Shown here piece after piece: positions 1 through 6,480 of a stretch of DNA of 37,188 bases; position 1 is the stretch's first letter, and every line of letters begins with the position of its first letter. Where the stretch lies: assembly GCA_021299375.1 (NCBI GenBank), contig JAJTGR010000082.1, positions 1 to 37,188 of the forward strand, written 5' to 3'. The position numbers and the translations under genes are program-made. Source of the stretch: Gemmatimonadota bacterium (lineage in GTDB: Bacteria; Gemmatimonadota; Gemmatimonadetes; Gemmatimonadales; Gemmatimonadaceae). The notes below the pieces were generated by a model. That model was not told the origin of the DNA, did no database searches, and saw only the letters and a list, made by a program, of their open reading frames with translations.

Positions 1-42
1 CTGGCCACCCCCTCGTGCTTTTCCCGCCGTGCTCCGTGGACT

Positions 43-205
43 CACCGTCCTCGGTGCCCTCCGTGTGGGCCCTTTCACCGTGCCCTCACCGACCTCGGTT
101 CCCTCTGTGTGGGCCCTTTCACCGCGCCCTCACCGTCCTCGGTGCCCTCCGTGTGGGCCCTTTCACCGCGCCCTCACCGTCCGCGGTGCCCTCCGTGAGG
201 GTTTT
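43..205. repeat. 44-bp tandem repeat array, 3 full units plus a partial, each with a small hairpin
   Basis: Units start at 43, 87, 131 and 175; the last is cut after about 30 bp. Units 1 and 3 differ by one base; unit 2 has several changes. Every unit opens with an inverted repeat: CACCG-TCCT-CGGTG in units 1 and 3, CACCG-TCCG-CGGTG in unit 4, and a stem shortened to ACCG-ACCT-CGGT in unit 2, so the stem core survives while loop bases vary. The array lies just past the clpP stop, so transcripts of clpP would carry several stem-loops in the 3' end. There are no unique spacers, so it is not a CRISPR. The repeats create a long open frame on the plus strand that looks non-genic. Confidence 0.9.
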
Positions 206-217
206 CCGCGCAGCGTC

Positions 218-832
218 TCAACGCCCAGCCGGCACCAGCTCCGCCTGATGCTGGATGACGTTGTCCACGAGGCCGTAGACCTTGGCGTCTTCCGCGCTCA
301 TGAAGCGGTCGCGATCGGTATCTCGCTCGATCTGCTCGATGGGGCGGCCGGTGTGCTTCGACATGAGCTCGTTCATCTTCGAACGGAGATACAGGATCTC
401 CTTGGCCTGAATCTCGATGTCCGAGGCCGAACCGCCGCCGCCATTCTGCGACGGCTGGTGGATCATGATGCGGCTGTGCGGCAGGGCGCTGCGGTGACCG
501 GCGGCGCCGGCGCAGAGCAGGAACGCGCCCATCGAGGCCGCCATGCCCATGCACGTGGTGTGCACCGGCGCCTTGATGAACTGCATGGTGTCGTACATCG
601 CGAGACCCGCCGACACGGAGCCGCCCGGCGAGTTGATGTACAGGTGGATCGGCTTCTCGGGGTTGTCGGCCTCGAGAAACAGCAGCTGTGCGATGATGAT
701 GTTCGCGACGTCGTCCGTGACGGGCGACCCCAGGAACACGATGCGATCCATGAGCAAGCGCGAGAAGATGTCGTACGTCCGCTCGCCGCGGCTGGAGCGC
801 TCGATGATATACGGCATGTAGATCGATGCCAT
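218..832 (-). CDS. clpP: ATP-dependent Clp protease proteolytic subunit ClpP
   Basis: Serine peptidase (family S14) that forms the barrel-shaped chamber of Clp proteases and degrades substrates fed by a Clp ATPase in the cytoplasm. The 204-residue product is full length. From the chosen start, the catalytic triad is visible: Ser100 in [10 protein letters not shown], His125 in SRIMIHQP and Asp175 in the DRDRF motif. The N-terminal [18 protein letters not shown] segment is the usual ClpP start. ATG at 832 is preferred because GGAG lies about 9 nt upstream; a GTG at 874 that overlaps the tig stop (GTGA) would add 14 residues. The tig-clpP order is conserved in bacteria; the usual next gene, clpX, is not visible in the 217 bases that remain to the left. 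Confidence 0.97.
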
Positions 833-870
833 GCTGCCTGTCTCCGGTACGTGGGTGGCGTCGCGGGCGC

Positions 871-2115
871 TCACGCGGCCGTGACGGTGTTCTTCTCGAG
901 CAACCAGGTGAAGACGCGCTCCTCGGTGATCTCGCGCTCGATTTCCTGCAGGCGCCCCTGCTTCTGCAGTTGCGCGTACACCTGGCCCGGATCAGCGTTC
1001 CGGGCCTTGGCGAGTGTCTCGACGCGCGCATCGACATCGGCCGCCGAAGCCTGCAGCGACTCGCGCTCGGCCAGCGTGTCGATGATCAGGTCCCGCCGCA
1101 CCTGGTTCTCGGCCATCGGCATGAACTCCTTGGCGAACGTCTGCTTCTGGGCCTCGGGCACACCGTACATCTGCATGTACCCGTCGACGAGCTGCATGAC
1201 CCACGCCTTGGGTACATCGAACGGATTCGTGGTCACGATCTGCTGGATGAGCTGACCGCGCACGTCGGCGTCGGCCTCGCGCTTGCTCTGTTCGGCCATG
1301 TCGGTGCGCACGGCCTCACGCAACGCATCGATGGTATCGAAGTCGCCGACTTCGCGCGCGAAGGTGTCATCGAGCACAGGCAGTGACTTGCGCTTGACGT
1401 CCTTCACCACGACACGCACGAGCTTGGCGACGCCGCGCTGCGACTCATCGGGGAAATCGTCGGGCCAGCGCACCGATCGCTCGGTGGTGCCGCCCGGCAC
1501 TGTCTCCATGATCAGCTCTTCGATACCGGCGATCGCCTGGCCGCCGCCGAGCACGATGCGGTACTCCTTGCCCTCGGGGAGGGTGCCGTCGGCGTCGGCG
1601 GTGGAGAGCAGCACGGTGACCATGTCACCCGGCGCCGCCTTCTCCTCGACCGGCGTCCACTCGGCCTTCTGCTCGCGGATCCGCTCGATCTGCTCCTCGA
1701 CGAGGGCGTCGGTCACGGCGGCATCGCGGCGGGTCAGCGTGAAGCCGTCAATCTGCTCCAGCGCGAGCTCCGGGCGCACTTCGCAGTGCAGCTCGAACTC
1801 GAGCGGCTGGCCGGGTTCGGCCTTGAGGTCGTGCACGTGGGGCTGCGCAGCCAGCTTGAGTCCTTCACGCTCGATGGCCGTGCGGAATGCCTCGTTGATG
1901 ACGATCTCGATGGCTTCCTGGCGCACGGCCTCGGGGAACTTCTTGCGCACCATGGACGGCGGTGCCTTGCCCGGGCGGAAGCCGGGGAGTCGCACCTGCG
2001 TCGCGTACTTGCGCGCCGCCTGGTCTTCGTAGGTCGCCACCGTCTCGGCCGGCACCGTGATCTGCAGGCGCCGGGAGACGCCAGCGGTCTCGGTCGGGGT
2101 AATGGTGATGTTCAT
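871..2115 (-). CDS. tig: Trigger factor, ribosome-associated chaperone and prolyl isomerase
   Basis: Ribosome-bound chaperone that shields nascent chains; family proteins also have peptidyl-prolyl isomerase activity. At 414 residues it is slightly shorter than E. coli Tig (432). The ribosome-docking signature GFRPGKAPP sits at residues 45-53 of the N-terminal domain. A central FKBP-type region follows (around 150-240), including a [13 protein letters not shown] stretch typical of FKBP folds, and then a helical C-terminal domain rich in E, R and Q. ATG at 2115 gives the standard MNITITPTE-like N-terminus; no strong Shine-Dalgarno sequence is visible. The stop overlaps a possible GTG start of clpP, so the two are almost certainly co-transcribed. 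Confidence 0.96.
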
Positions 2116-2250: not shown

Positions 2251-3765
2251 TCAGACCGGGGCGAGCGTCGGCGCCGGGGTCGGCGCGGTCTTCCTGGCCG
2301 GGGCACCGCCGATGAGTTCGGCCACGATCTTCCCGCTGGCGATCACGCCGGGCAGGCCGGCGCCGGGGTGGGTCCCGGCGCCGCAGAAGTAGAGGTTCGA
2401 GATGTCCTTGCTCTGGTTGTGCGGCCGCATGTAGGCGGACTGCGTCAGCACCGGCTCGGGGCCGAACGCGCTGCCCATGTAGCTGTTGAGCGTCCGCTCG
2501 AAATAGCGTGGGTCGATACGCCGCTCGGTCACGAGGTGCTGCGACAGCTCCGGGAGGTAGCGATCCTCGAGGTACTGCATGATGCGGTCGCGATAGCGCT
2601 GCCCCACGGCTTCCCAGTCCGTTCGGCTCCCGAGATGTGGGACCGGCGAAAGCACATACCAGCAGTCATGTCCCGGCGGCGCCAGCGATGCGTCGGTCGC
2701 CGTGGGGCGGTGCAGGTAGAGCGAGAAGTCATCGGCAAGGATCTTCCGCTCGAAGATGTCCTCGAGCAGCGACTTGTAGCGGGGGCCCATGATGATCTCA
2801 TGGTGCGCGATGTTGTCGTACTGCCGGTTGGTACCGAAGTAGATCACGAACAGCGACATCGAGTGCCGCAGGTTCTCCACCCTGCGGTTGCTCATGCTGG
2901 GGCGCTTCTCGGGTGGCAGGAGCGTACGATACGCCTGCACCAGATCGCCGTTGCACACCACAGCCTCCGCACGCAGCTGCTCACCACCGACCAGCTTGAC
3001 GCCATTGGCGCGGCGGTTGTCGCCGACCAGGATTTCCTGCACCTCACTCTCGTACCGGATGCGGCCTCCGAGATCCTCGAATGCCTGCACCAGAGCACGC
3101 ACGAGGGCGCCCGTGCCGCCCATCGCGAAAAGCACGCCCCACTGCTGCTCGAGCTTGTGGATGAGGGCGTACATGGACGAGGCGCGGTACGGGTTGCCGC
3201 CCACCAACAACGGGTGAAAGGAAAAGACCTGCCGCAAGCGCTCGTCCTTGAGATACTTGTCGGCCAGCCCGGCCACGGAGATGTCGGAGCGGGTGCGGAT
3301 GAGCTCCGGCAACACCTTCACCATCGACCCGAGTGACAGGAAGGGCTTGTCGATGAGCGGCATGCCGACGTTGAAGATCTCCCACGCCTTCTCACGAAAG
3401 CGCAGGTAGCCGTCCACATCGTCCGGCGAGAACTCGCGCACCTGCCGCACGAGTGACTCCTTGTCGCCGTTGTAGTGGAAAACCGTACCGTCCTCGAACC
3501 GAATGTTGTAGAAGGGATCGAGGAGGACGAGCTTGATGTAGTCGGCGGTCGTGCGGCCCGTGAGCGCGAACAACTCGTCGAGGACCCAAGGCGCCGTGAT
3601 GATGGTCGGGCCGGCGTCGAAGGTGAAGCCGTCCTGCTCGAACACGTAGGCTCGGCCACCAGCCTTGTCGAGCTTCTCGACAATGGTGACGTCGTGACCC
3701 TGAGCCTGCAGACGGATGGCAGCGGCCAACCCGCCGAATCCACTGCCGATGACGACAATGCGCAT
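2251..3765 (-). CDS. crtI: Phytoene desaturase CrtI
   Basis: FAD-dependent desaturase that introduces double bases of conjugation into phytoene to give acyclic coloured carotenes such as neurosporene or lycopene; membrane-associated. The 504-residue length is typical. The N-terminal dinucleotide-binding motif GSGFGGLAAAIRL is at residues 7-19, followed by the E-K-x5-GGRA segment of CrtI proteins. The C-terminal FAD signature GAGTHPGAGLPGV begins at about 462. The tail after it is Pro/Ala/Thr-rich and probably disordered. How many desaturation steps it performs cannot be read from sequence. It is last in the carotenoid cluster, 43 bp after a small membrane protein gene. ATG 3765 is the only sensible start, directly before the FAD motif. 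Confidence 0.96.
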   Translation of the reverse strand: MRIVVIGSGFGGLAAAIRLQAQGHDVTIVEKLDKAGGRAYVFEQDGFTFDAGPTIITAPWVLDELFALTGRTTADYIKLVLLDPFYNIRFEDGTVFHYNGDKESLVRQVREFSPDDVDGYLRFREKAWEIFNVGMPLIDKPFLSLGSMVKVLPELIRTRSDISVAGLADKYLKDERLRQVFSFHPLLVGGNPYRASSMYALIHKLEQQWGVLFAMGGTGALVRALVQAFEDLGGRIRYESEVQEILVGDNRRANGVKLVGGEQLRAEAVVCNGDLVQAYRTLLPPEKRPSMSNRRVENLRHSMSLFVIYFGTNRQYDNIAHHEIIMGPRYKSLLEDIFERKILADDFSLYLHRPTATDASLAPPGHDCWYVLSPVPHLGSRTDWEAVGQRYRDRIMQYLEDRYLPELSQHLVTERRIDPRYFERTLNSYMGSAFGPEPVLTQSAYMRPHNQSKDISNLYFCGAGTHPGAGLPGVIASGKIVAELIGGAPARKTAPTPAPTLAPV

Positions 3766-3808
3766 GAACCGGAATGCTGAAGGAGCAGAGCGCCCGCCCC
3801 GCCGCGTG

Positions 3809-4099
3809 TCAGCGACGAAGCAGGACGGCGATGTGCCAGAGGTGAACGACCAAGGCGCAGAGCATGGCGATGGCGAATCCTTCCGGCGACGGCTCGGGTC
3901 GGCGATGGAAGATCATCGCGGCGACCAGTGAACCGCCGGCCCCCAGGAACGACACGATGCGCGCCGTGTTCGGTGATCCGAGTGGCGACTTCGGGTTCCG
4001 TCGCTGCCAGATCACCAGCACCGCCGCCTCGATGACGATGAGGACGAGGATGCCGATGGGCAGGGCATCAGAATCGAAGATGGGGACGAGGCGATCCAT
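3809..4099 (-). CDS. Small three-helix membrane protein of unknown function in the carotenoid cluster
   Basis: I do not recognise a family. From ATG 4099 the product has 96 residues with three likely membrane helices (about 8-27, 47-63 and 73-93), joined by a basic loop (WQRRNPK) after helix 1 and HRRPEPSPEG before helix 3, and ends in LLRR. A longer open frame to 4198 would add a Pro/Arg-rich leader that overlaps two hairpins and looks non-coding. No clear Shine-Dalgarno sequence precedes ATG 4099, so the start is uncertain. Its position between cruF and crtI suggests a role linked to carotenoid synthesis or membrane placement, but that is inference from context only. Confidence 0.65.
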   Translation of the reverse strand: MDRLVPIFDSDALPIGILVLIVIEAAVLVIWQRRNPKSPLGSPNTARIVSFLGAGGSLVAAMIFHRRPEPSPEGFAIAMLCALVVHLWHIAVLLRR

Positions 4100-4125
4100 A
4101 CCGCAGTCGAAGGAGCTAACGCAGA

Positions 4126-4147
4126 CCCGGGCGAGAGTGTGCCCGGG
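4126..4147. other. GC-only stem-loop upstream of the small membrane protein
   Basis: CCCGGGC (4126-4132) and GCCCGGG (4141-4147) form a 7-bp stem with an 8-nt loop, 26 nt upstream of ATG 4099. It has no T-run on either strand. It may be a 5' leader structure or part of a double terminator with the hairpin at 4186-4211. Confidence 0.45.
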
Positions 4148-4185
4148 GGGCCCTGAGTTGGGCGCACGAGGTGGCCGGTTCCAAG

Positions 4186-4211
4186 AACGGCCGGGCATGT
4201 GCCCGGCCGTT
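4186..4211 (-). terminator. Terminator-like hairpin after cruF
   Basis: A perfect 12-bp inverted repeat (AACGGCCGGGCA ... TGCCCGGCCGTT) with two unpaired central bases, 32 nt past the cruF stop. On the minus strand the stem runs into TTCTTGG, a weak T-rich tail. It would separate crtB-cruF from the two downstream genes, or attenuate between them. Confidence 0.65.
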
Positions 4212-4243
4212 GTGCCCTGCTGCCACGGGGGCGAGGGGTGGGG

Positions 4244-5206
4244 TCAGTTCCCCGACACCGCCACCTGACCAAGGGGCGCCGACGGTGCCGTGCCCGGCGA
4301 GGGCAGGGGCATCGGGGCGTTGCGCAGGGCGGCCCACAGCGGGAGACCCATGGCGATGGTGCCGAGGACGCCCGCCAGCACCATGTCCTGGCGGAGGCAG
4401 ATGACGATCGGCAGGAGACCGTTCACGGCGTACAGCGTGATCGGCAGGCGGTGCGGCGACACCTTGGTGGCCCACATCGACGGGGGTACCAGCGCGAGCA
4501 TCACGCGGGCGACGAGGATGCCGGTGAGCAGCCACCCGAGCCAATTGGTGATCGGCATGCCAAAGAAAATGGGCTTGCCGATGAACTGCTCGAAAGCGCT
4601 CCGGTCGGACAGATCACCGATCTGCCAGAACCAGTGGTTGGTCTTGACCATGGCAGGATCCATGGATACGTCCCACAGCGTCAGGACCAAGCCGCCCATG
4701 AAGGCCCACCACCACTTGGAGGTGCGGTCGTCCTTGGCCGGCAGGAATCGGCCGCAGATGGCCAGCGACGCGACCAGCATGTAGAACCACGACGTGGGGA
4801 TGTTGAACGGCACGCGGTCGAGGATCTTGTAGCCCAGCTGGCTCGAGTACTCGTAGGCTCCGAACGGGTAGTCGGTGACGGTGCCCGCGTACTCGGAGAG
4901 GAACGCGAGAGCAAATGACACCAGGAAAACGGGAAGGGCGCGGGCCACCCCGATCGTGTGCGCCAGGAACGCGAGGCCGGCGATGGCACCCAGCGTGACC
5001 GTGGTCGCCCCCCCATAGGTGAAGCCCATGGCCATCACCTTCTGGTTCTGCGGGGTCTGGAGCCACTCCGGGTACGGCGGCACCAGAAACGTCGCGAACG
5101 CAAACGCGGAGAATGCCGAGAAGAACGCATGTCCGAGGAGCGCGGCAGCCGCGATCCGGAACAACGTGGACGGCGCGGTATCCCGAAGGTCGGTGGAGTG
5201 AGTCAT
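4244..5206 (-). CDS. cruF: CruF-type carotenoid 1,2-hydratase (DUF422/COG2324 family)
   Basis: Integral membrane enzyme that adds water across the C-1,2 double bond at the acyclic psi end of carotenoids, making tertiary hydroxyl groups; the family also includes bisanhydrobacterioruberin hydratase. The 320 residues contain about seven to eight hydrophobic segments. Recognisable family stretches are EYAGTVTDYPFGAYEY, then VPFNIPTSWFYM, WDVSMDPAMV and FFGMPITNWLGW, whose Asp, Glu, Tyr and Trp residues are the likely active-site set. The C-terminal 25 residues are Pro/Ala-rich. ATG 5206 follows a GAGGGG ribosome site that overlaps the crtB stop, so translation is probably coupled to crtB. With CrtI and CrtB and no cyclase nearby, it points to acyclic hydroxylated carotenoids. 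Confidence 0.9.
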   Translation of the reverse strand: MTHSTDLRDTAPSTLFRIAAAALLGHAFFSAFSAFAFATFLVPPYPEWLQTPQNQKVMAMGFTYGGATTVTLGAIAGLAFLAHTIGVARALPVFLVSFALAFLSEYAGTVTDYPFGAYEYSSQLGYKILDRVPFNIPTSWFYMLVASLAICGRFLPAKDDRTSKWWWAFMGGLVLTLWDVSMDPAMVKTNHWFWQIGDLSDRSAFEQFIGKPIFFGMPITNWLGWLLTGILVARVMLALVPPSMWATKVSPHRLPITLYAVNGLLPIVICLRQDMVLAGVLGTIAMGLPLWAALRNAPMPLPSPGTAPSAPLGQVAVSGN

Positions 5207-5218
5207 GCGAACAGCCCC

Positions 5219-6202
5219 TCAGGCAAGACGGATCAGGGTATCGGTATTGGCCGACGCCGTGTTGGGTTCCCAGACGATGCGCGGCCCGTGCCCCAGCGCC
5301 GACAAGTCCGGGGTGGGGGCCCGATAGCGCCAGGCGTTCCACAGAATGCCCACGCGGGCCAGGCGACCGATGCGGGCACGTGACGAGATGGTGTCGTACC
5401 CTTGGGCTTCGATGGCGTTCAGAATGCCGGCATAGCCCGTGGCGCACGCCGCGGCACAGCGCTGGGCGTCGGATGCAAGCAGTGCGATGCCTGGCATGGC
5501 GGCGTCGTAGAGCGCTCGCGCCCGGCTCACCTCGAAGGCCATCAGGCGGGCCCACCCGGGTTCACGCACCAGCGACGCCCCACGAGTCAGCACGTCCTGC
5601 GGGGTGAGCCCGAAGCGGGCCATATCCTCGGCCGGCAGGTAGCAGCGACCGCGGTGGGCATCCTCCCCAACGTCCCGGAGGATATTGGTCAGCTGCATCG
5701 CCGTGCCGAGCGTCCGTGCGTACTGAATGGCCTTGGTCCGCATGGCCGGGCCAGCCGGCACACCGAACACGTAGGTGCACATCTCGCCGACCGAGCTGGC
5801 GACCCCCTCACAATACTGCTCGAGTTCGGCCCACGTCGCATAGGTGTGGGCCTCCAGATCCCGACCGACCCCGTCCAACAGTTCAAAGAGCGGATCGGGG
5901 GCCACGTCGTAGGCGCGGGTGACCCATGCCATTTCGCGGAAGATGGGGCCGCTGGGGCGCCCGTCGAGGGCGGCCTGCAGTTGGTCCCGATACGCATCGA
6001 GCTGGACCCGGAGCGCGGCCAGATTCCCCTGATCGGCCTGATCGACGAGATCGTCGGCCACCCGGCAGAACGCATACAGGGCATAGGCGGCGCGGCGTTT
6101 CTCGGTGGGGAGCAGCTTGCTCGCGAGCGAGAACGTCCGGGCGTGTACCAGGGTGATTCGGGCGCACTCGGACGCGTCCGTCATCGGGGCGGGCGCGATC
6201 AT
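5219..6202 (-). CDS. crtB: Phytoene synthase CrtB
   Basis: Condenses two geranylgeranyl diphosphates into 15-cis-phytoene, the first committed step of carotenoid synthesis; squalene/phytoene synthase family. From ATG 6202 it has 327 residues. The first Asp-rich Mg-diphosphate motif is DDLVD at 50-54 and the second is DVGED at 177-181 in LTNILRDVGED, followed by the RGRCYLP segment. The dehydrosqualene versus phytoene choice cannot be settled from sequence, but the crtI and cruF partners favour phytoene. The start is uncertain: ATG 6202, ATG 6184 and GTG 6277 are all open and none has a good ribosome site. The family core starts with ITLVHARTFSLAS, so either ATG suffices. Confidence 0.94.
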   Translation of the reverse strand: MIAPAPMTDASECARITLVHARTFSLASKLLPTEKRRAAYALYAFCRVADDLVDQADQGNLAALRVQLDAYRDQLQAALDGRPSGPIFREMAWVTRAYDVAPDPLFELLDGVGRDLEAHTYATWAELEQYCEGVASSVGEMCTYVFGVPAGPAMRTKAIQYARTLGTAMQLTNILRDVGEDAHRGRCYLPAEDMARFGLTPQDVLTRGASLVREPGWARLMAFEVSRARALYDAAMPGIALLASDAQRCAAACATGYAGILNAIEAQGYDTISSRARIGRLARVGILWNAWRYRAPTPDLSALGHGPRIVWEPNTASANTDTLIRLA

Positions 6203-6307
6203 GCCACCATGGTCGTGGGACGCCGAGGACTCATCGGAGCGGTGCCGGGCAAGGATGACGAAGGTGGCGCAGCGCACCCGGACGAGAGCGCTGCCGCACA
6301 GTCAACG

Positions 6308-6332: not shown

Positions 6333-6448
6333 TCAACCGCAAAGGGCTCGAACGCCGAGCCCGCCGTCTATGACCAAGGTGCGACTGATTGGACCGGGTG
6401 TCAACATGACTGGACACCATCACCTGTAAACCCTGGGATGAATGACGA

Positions 6449-6480
6449 GGGATGCGTGACAGGGATGCGTGACAGGGATG
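6449..6480. repeat. 13-bp direct repeats, two perfect units plus partial
   Basis: GGGATGCGTGACA occurs at 6449-6461 and 6462-6474, followed by GGGATG at 6475-6480 (one G run shifted) and preceded by a related GGGATGAATGACGA at 6435-6448. Spacing near one helical turn plus a few bases suggests a possible operator or simple slippage duplication. Confidence 0.7.

Follow-up and report, generated by a model that had tools for sequence, protein, structure and literature searches.

The window, a stretch of 37,188 nucleotides from a Gemmatimonadota bacterium, begins with a tandem array that adjoins the clpP gene of a tig-clpP pair (Table 1). This arrangement, which an earlier note made from the sequence alone had described, was confirmed by Tandem Repeats Finder and by Pfam matches for both genes. 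The array has a period of 44 with 92% matches and no indels, and it scored 280, compared with scores of 41-69 for the other four arrays of the window. Its units start at approximately positions 41, 85, 129 and 173, and a gap of 16 bp separates its end from that of the clpP ORF. Within the array, the CACCG/CGGTG stem of each unit was found as the note had described it, with 5, 4, 5 and 5 pairs in units 1 to 4, unit 2 (CGGTT) retaining a 4-bp core. The RNA folding of positions 60-205 was mildly better than that of shuffled sequences (z of -2.6 and -2.5 on the two strands), and Rfam gave no match over the array; one sub-threshold match in positions 1-900 lay elsewhere. The window corresponds to positions 1-37188 of contig C22, so that the array sits at the very start of the contig, and its left part and anything further left lie beyond the contig. 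Four further contigs of the same genome (C115, C106, C36 and C20) begin in the same repeat. Additionally, the window contains a second, smaller tandem repeat at positions 6435-6480 (period 13, GGGATGCGTGACA, 3.5 copies) and, beside tig at positions 2251-6277, an apparent carotenoid cluster with genes matching the amine oxidase/desaturase family, Caroten_synth and SQS_PSY.

Table 1. Features at the start of the window.
Feature	Position	Strand	Basis
Degenerate start of a further unit (GTGCTCCGTGGA) preceding the array	28..40	+	Sequence; the partner left arm is outside the window, as the contig begins here
Tandem array of 3.7 units of 44 bp, each unit being the right arm of a dispersed palindrome	41..201	+	Tandem Repeats Finder, genome-wide matches, sequence
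Unit composition: 9-bp steps CTCACCGTC CTCGGTGCC CTCCGTGTG and linker GGCCCTTTCACCGCGCC	41..201	+	Sequence
clpP, neighbouring gene outside the element	218..874	-	PF00574, 1.8e-82
tig (trigger factor), neighbouring gene outside the element	871..2115	-	PF05697, 3e-39, and PF05698

Using positions 1-260 of the window as the query, we found 36 matches on 13 contigs of the same genome, many of which formed inverted pairs consisting of a minus-strand copy followed by a plus-strand copy. The earlier note had offered a mobile-repeat family as one option for the array and a genome-wide search for the 44-bp unit as a check, and this search favors that option. The dispersed element is a palindrome of approximately 100 bp with arms of approximately 44 bp, built in 9-bp steps that read, in order, CCTCCGTGC CCTCACTGT CCTCGGTGC CCTCCGTGT. 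The unit of the array is one arm of this scattered inverted-repeat element, and the array is not a feature of clpP. In particular, the clean copy on C41 is a single 102-bp palindrome with a long, nearly unbroken stem (z of -16.3 against dinucleotide shuffles). Tandem growth of the arm was also observed on C115 and, in both arms, on C69, and on C36 and C20 the whole palindrome of approximately 124 bp was repeated instead of one arm; the copy number of the unit arrays differs from place to place. Slippage or unequal recombination between arms is the probable source of the tandem growth beside clpP and of that on C69 and C115.

The earlier note had taken the retention of the CACCG/CGGTG stem as a hint of selection on RNA structure, and the other copies in the genome did not support this. 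Among 59 other unit copies, collected by a mismatch scan from 13 fetched stretches of the same genome, only 16 retained all five stem pairs, and the variation in the stem columns was approximately three times that in the remaining columns of the unit (0.18 versus 0.063). Selection on the small stem was rejected because its columns are the most variable of the unit; what recurs is the long palindrome formed between the two arms. The idea of strong co-evolution between arms in this genome was set aside as well, as the similarity of own arms over other arms showed no clear excess among 10 elements (p of 0.14). One copy, on C62 (L019:7700-7927), lies within the ORF of an error-prone DNA polymerase (NF004225). 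Alignment of the query with the solved relative 2hpi runs up to residue 456 and resumes at residue 654, leaving an extra stretch of approximately 200 residues that is absent from solved relatives; because the approximately 76 codons of the element fall inside this stretch, as computed by hand, the copy looks like an in-frame insertion in the polymerase gene.

We compared the clpP locus across the genus. Of its 29 other genomes, 28 matched the clpP part of the query, and the array was included in the match in 0 of these 28, which indicates that the copy beside clpP is species-specific. Absence from other strains, together with a lack of effect on RNA ends, had been named in the earlier note as a sign of neutral slippage; the absence was found in these relatives, and the neutral reading of the unit itself did not survive its dispersal in inverted pairs on 13 contigs. 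The expectation that the gene pair usually continues to clpX did not hold in this genus, where a ClpX-type Walker motif was found downstream of clpP in 5 of 28 loci, three of the loci having short flanks. In the relatives, the region downstream of clpP carried a CTCCGTG-family palindrome (L385), other periodic palindromes (several loci) or plain terminator-like hairpins (others). A second site, the convergent-gene site that holds the C41 element, was empty (11-43 bp) in L364, L366, L367 and L371, was filled with different periodic palindromes in L352-L356, L358 and L361, and carried a longer insert in L359; the occupation of this site thus varies between species. The empty orthologous sites were too diverged to fix the junction of a target-site duplication, and one possible 8-bp direct repeat was seen by eye at L246. 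We also observed in the genus of the window further periodic palindromes of unrelated sequence (the CCCACAAC, ACGACTC, GCAGACGG and GGAGGCAGG types) that occupy the same intergenic sites and enclose no gene (L352-L356, L358 and L361; L391, L394 and L396-L402).

On C69, the left array (56.69-57.0 kb, minus strand) and the right array (57.43-58.07 kb, plus strand) enclose a gene of 127-129 codons, the product of which matches PF13366 at 1.8e-34. All 19 arm-associated or related proteins that we profiled match both TIGR04256, the GxxExxY family, and PF13366 (PDDEXK_3), with 145 bits for the L181 protein against a TIGR04256 cut-off of 35 and 120 bits for the C69 protein against a PF13366 cut-off of 22. 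The same profiling assigned the gene between the repeats to this nuclease family and found no transposase domain in it. Residues invariant in the 19 sequences include G26, G28, E31, Y34, D71, E81, Q95, Y99, N112 and F113, and K83 is nearly invariant. Judged from these motifs, the GxxExxY protein is predicted to be a single-domain PD-(D/E)XK nuclease with the conserved D, E-x-K and a supporting acidic residue. Cas4 was the next best family, matched by 8 of the 19 proteins in Pfam and by 9 in one PADLOC model. A search of the PDB by sequence returned no solved relative, and an AlphaFold model from a three-row alignment had a pLDDT of 43, too low to be of use.

The association between this gene and inverted repeats was examined by a test that presupposes no motif, in which the 200-bp flank preceding each gene was compared with the reverse-complemented 200-bp flank following it and both flanks were searched for hairpins, each against shuffles. 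The pass threshold (best shuffle plus 2 or 3) was set before the control was run and was not tuned afterwards; flank windows were 200 bp for the 86-locus set and the controls, 250 bp for the two unselected sets and 150 bp for the arm-model set. Of 86 GxxExxY loci, 64 passed (43 by terminal inverted repeats and 31 by hairpins, some by both). Among the controls, 1 of 24 ParE loci passed (Fisher test, 2.6e-10), as did 7 of 86 other ORFs lying over 500 bp away (7e-20). The control counts cover the testable cases, after the loss of 6 from 30 ParE loci and of 14 from 100 ORFs sampled. Loci of the same genus are not independent of one another, and L114 and L242, which have the same arms, are likely one place counted twice in the 86. 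In the genomes reached from the arm-pattern loci described below, the 30 best GxxExxY loci included 14 with a fixed arm motif no further than 150 bp from the gene, on both sides and inverted in 11 of them; around ParE in the same genomes, it occurred within 150 bp at 0 of 30 loci and at approximately 1.4 kb at 2 of 30. The set centred on the genus of the window was weaker (16 of 53 within 150 bp), and this genome has four GxxExxY genes, at three of which (L053, L054 and L055) the flank test found no inverted repeat or hairpin.

In genomes that were not selected by the repeat, 40 of 55 testable GxxExxY genes lay between inverted repeats, mostly with the 9-bp step. Flanking terminal inverted repeats were found at 21 of 26 loci of the Burkholderiales order, from which 3 of 29 loci had been dropped (two with short flanks and one with no hit), and at 19 of 29 Bacteroidota loci, a few of which had long repeats of low identity without a clear 9-bp step. 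In both unselected sets the gene fills the loop, with median gaps to the arms of 5.5-20 bp and a total length of 471-486 bp. The arms differ by lineage and follow one template, as in CACAGAGGA, CGCAAAGGN, CACGAAGGA, CGCCAAGGA, CACAGATNN, CACGAATGA and ACAGGATTT. A 9-column model of 146 arms gave a log-likelihood of 593, compared with at most 250 for shuffled arms, and a period of 9 was the best of periods 6-12, with 10 and 11 near it (556 and 550).

A generic arm pattern searched over one genome per species matched at least 119 stretches, and the groups among the matches listed were Gemmatimonadetes, Acidobacteria, Proteobacteria, Planctomycetes, Verrucomicrobia, Chloroflexi (Anaerolineae), Bacteroidetes and Cyanobacteria. 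Following 50 of these loci led to 49 genomes, 42 of which contained PF13366. Record titles place 14 of the 49 among the betaproteobacteria, and PF13366 was present in 11 of those. A profile match was not found in the other 7 of the 49 repeat-bearing genomes, nor in G042 and G058. By comparison, PF13366 was present in 23 of 150 genomes from a single order, in 3 of 14 named controls and in 75 of 148 genomes of a Bacteroidota sample; co-occurrence alone is weak in the last group because PF13366 is common there. Among 61 genomes around the window, nearly all of its genus, 34 contained PF13366, and co-occurrence was not clear, with the gene in 7 of 9 repeat-positive genomes versus 27 of 52 repeat-negative ones. 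Carriage by viruses was rejected, as two scans of viral contigs contained no GxxExxY relatives, and carriage by plasmids was likewise discarded, with 8 of 72,556 records, all below 60% identity. Some record names look wrong: a bin titled 'Kuenenia stuttgartiensis' (L073/L076, G068) gave matches at coordinates identical to those of G010, a member of the window's genus, so that the two look like one genome, and a 'Janthinobacterium' bin (L126, G104) shares its genus with Iodobacter records.

We found that gene-bearing and gene-less copies form one family in each genome. In 12 genomes, the outer tag, the 8 bases beyond the last arm block, agreed at 5.13 of 8 positions between gene-bearing and pattern loci of the same genome and at 3.30 of 8 between genomes, an agreement reached by 0 of 20,000 permutations. 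A left arm on the minus strand with a right arm on the plus strand was seen in 43 pairs, versus 7 in the opposite order. In the genus of G104, whose loci are titled Iodobacter or Janthinobacterium, a query of the element with its flanks gave 59-132 matches per genome, mostly short arm copies on both strands, and each of three genomes searched (G104, G075 and G107) had one PF13366 gene. At one orthologous site in this genus, some form of the element is present in all 8 genomes with both flanks. In six of them it spans 570-660 bp; in G107 it measures 450 bp and its gene is shortened, and in G405 a decayed copy of 232 bp remains. Some species have AAATCTTGAACC as the outer tag at this site, others CCAAGTCTGTAG or a similar sequence, and each tag is common to both arms. 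This architecture recurs across several phyla, where each genome has its own variant of the arm and an outer tag common to both forms of the copy.

Further observations concern the surroundings of the gene. Five species retain a hairpin beside GxxExxY; of its 49 pairs, 8 have changed on both sides, and the covariation term is a modest 0.2. At one syntenic site in the L184-L217 set, the GxxExxY DNA no longer aligns in several species, the flanks of which are 77-87% identical, and the comparison suggests fast evolution or replacement of the gene. At L254:1858-1911, an arm is translated as the start of a GxxExxY protein (MKTNHRGTEDTEV), and some annotated N-termini of the family may be translated repeat. 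Another type of palindrome (GGAGAAGCGGAG...CTCCGTTTCTCC) stands beside the GxxExxY gene at L212:1917-2400 and L223:1976-2090, with several tandem copies in G005 and one in G015.

An element with a small nuclease gene between its arms in many bacterial groups suggests a little-known class of mobile DNA. These repeats are probably, with appreciable room for doubt, a mobile element family resembling REPINs and RAYTs and driven by a predicted Cas4-like nuclease instead of a transposase; the architecture is observed, and mobilization by the nuclease is inferred from it. The gene-bearing copy would be the driver and the short palindromes its non-autonomous offspring, as is thought of RAYT and REPINs. 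In single-stranded or supercoiled DNA the arms would extrude a hairpin, at or near which the nuclease would cut; the cut piece would then be copied or re-inserted by host repair, chiefly in intergenic positions and close to terminators. In most cases it is the purine-rich strand (GGAGG/AGAGG) that reads inward, as in AGAGGAAAGCGCATG of L236, so that either arm could supply the gene in the loop with a ribosome-binding site. The array beside clpP would be a by-product, an arm grown by slippage or unequal recombination. A wider proposal, on which we would not quite wager evenly, holds that this is an unrecognised mobile class of many phyla, with a small Cas4-like PD-(D/E)XK gene in the loop of a palindrome and arms in 9-bp steps on a template of approximately N-C-N-C-N-R-A-R-R, which spreads gene-less hairpins without a transposase; many unnamed CTCTGTG, CTTCGTG, CTTTGCG, CTTGGCG and ATCCTGT repeats of bacterial genomes would then be one superfamily. 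The layout of a resident gene with gene-less hairpins is already known from REPtrons.

The palindromes could instead be spread by a RAYT-type or IS transposase, or by template switching between palindromes during replication, with GxxExxY as a passenger that prefers or tolerates a palindrome. The seven repeat-bearing genomes without PF13366 are consistent with this explanation, as is the intergenic site in the genus of the window that holds several unrelated, gene-less periodic palindromes, and RAYT genes, too, can have long terminal inverted repeats as flanks and dispersed copies (PMC3733652). In 40 of 55 unselected loci, however, the repeats enclose GxxExxY and no other gene, at median gaps of 5.5-20 bp from the arms, and the outer tag of the gene-bearing copy agrees with that of the gene-less copies in its genome. 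A passenger would not be expected to belong to one family in Proteobacteria, Bacteroidota and Gemmatimonadota alike, and we consider this explanation unlikely.

Somewhat less likely still is the possibility that the palindromes are host structures, mainly bidirectional terminators or RNA-stability hairpins, which GxxExxY, as a domesticated nuclease, trims or polices and which ordinary recombination spreads. The elements do lie between genes, often converging ones, some copies end in a T run (the C26 copy, GGGCTTTTTTT), plain terminator-like hairpins occupy the clpP site of other species, and the hairpin beside GxxExxY is kept in five species with paired changes. Against these points, the occupation of sites is unstable between species, one copy stands in frame in a polymerase gene, the covariation is modest (term of 0.2) and not significant among the copies of this genome, and the position of the gene inside the loop is left unexplained. 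Neutral local slippage of a chance 44-bp unit beside clpP, without wider meaning, would account for the absence of the array from the 28 relatives and for arrays that differ in copy number between places. It cannot create inverted pairs on 13 contigs; as the origin of the unit it is refuted and, taken as the whole explanation, it is highly improbable, but it holds for the tandem growth.

These results point to a likely source of a widespread, unnamed kind of intergenic repeat. They also place the GxxExxY proteins, for which the annotation of many genomes names no function, in a biological context for the first time. Should the nuclease drive the spread, mobilization would be carried out by an enzyme that is not a transposase, with gene and arms contained in approximately 500 bp. 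Such arrays can also break assemblies and pass for gene-specific regulatory structures. The open-access literature that was covered, on GxxExxY, PF13366 and TIGR04256, on CACGGAGG and palindromes, on PDDEXK proteins with palindromic repeats, on small dispersed repeats and on repeats of Gemmatimonadetes, gave no account of this association; for an arm 16-mer, the titles concerned connexin 26 and the optic cup.

Several known systems share features with this element. In Rickettsia palindromic elements, a palindrome lies in frame inside a protein gene, and the C62 copy in the error-prone DNA polymerase gene may be likened to them by description. The GxxExxY proteins share acidic, ExK and QxxxY residues with Cas4, which we take to be a Cas4-type motif; their match to Cas4 is far weaker (at best 4e-5 versus 4e-44), and no CRISPR locus was present in the loci read. 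All 19 arm-associated proteins belong to the GxxExxY family (TIGR04256, PF13366), and those parts of the papers found by its name that were available give no repeat context. As in MITEs, there are terminal inverted repeats, many copies and no gene in the short form, whereas the gene between the same repeats here belongs to a nuclease family and has no transposase domain. The BrickBuilt elements of Porphyromonas gingivalis are described as short, non-coding, intergenic and multi-copy, with inverted ends and 23-bp tandem units (PMC4596501). Our short copies resemble them in these respects, except that the gene-bearing relative encodes a predicted nuclease, not a transposase, and that the 9-bp units form the arms themselves. 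The closest description is that of the REPIN/RAYT systems, in which a resident gene shares inverted repeats with many gene-less hairpin copies that are extragenic and occur as hairpin doublets and tandem arrays (PMC3116915; PMC3733652). Like REPINs with their RAYT (REPtrons, or 'TIRtrons' where flanked by terminal inverted repeats), the present family combines one resident gene with many small hairpins and dispersed inverted doublets outside genes (43 versus 7 pairs). In contrast, its gene encodes a predicted PD-(D/E)XK nuclease (19 of 19 matching TIGR04256/PF13366) rather than an HUH tyrosine transposase, its arms are longer and run in 9-bp steps, and its ends, inspected in this genome and 12 others, carry forms such as AACAGCCCACACGG and AAATCTTGAACCACAG in place of a GTAG or CGTC end tag.
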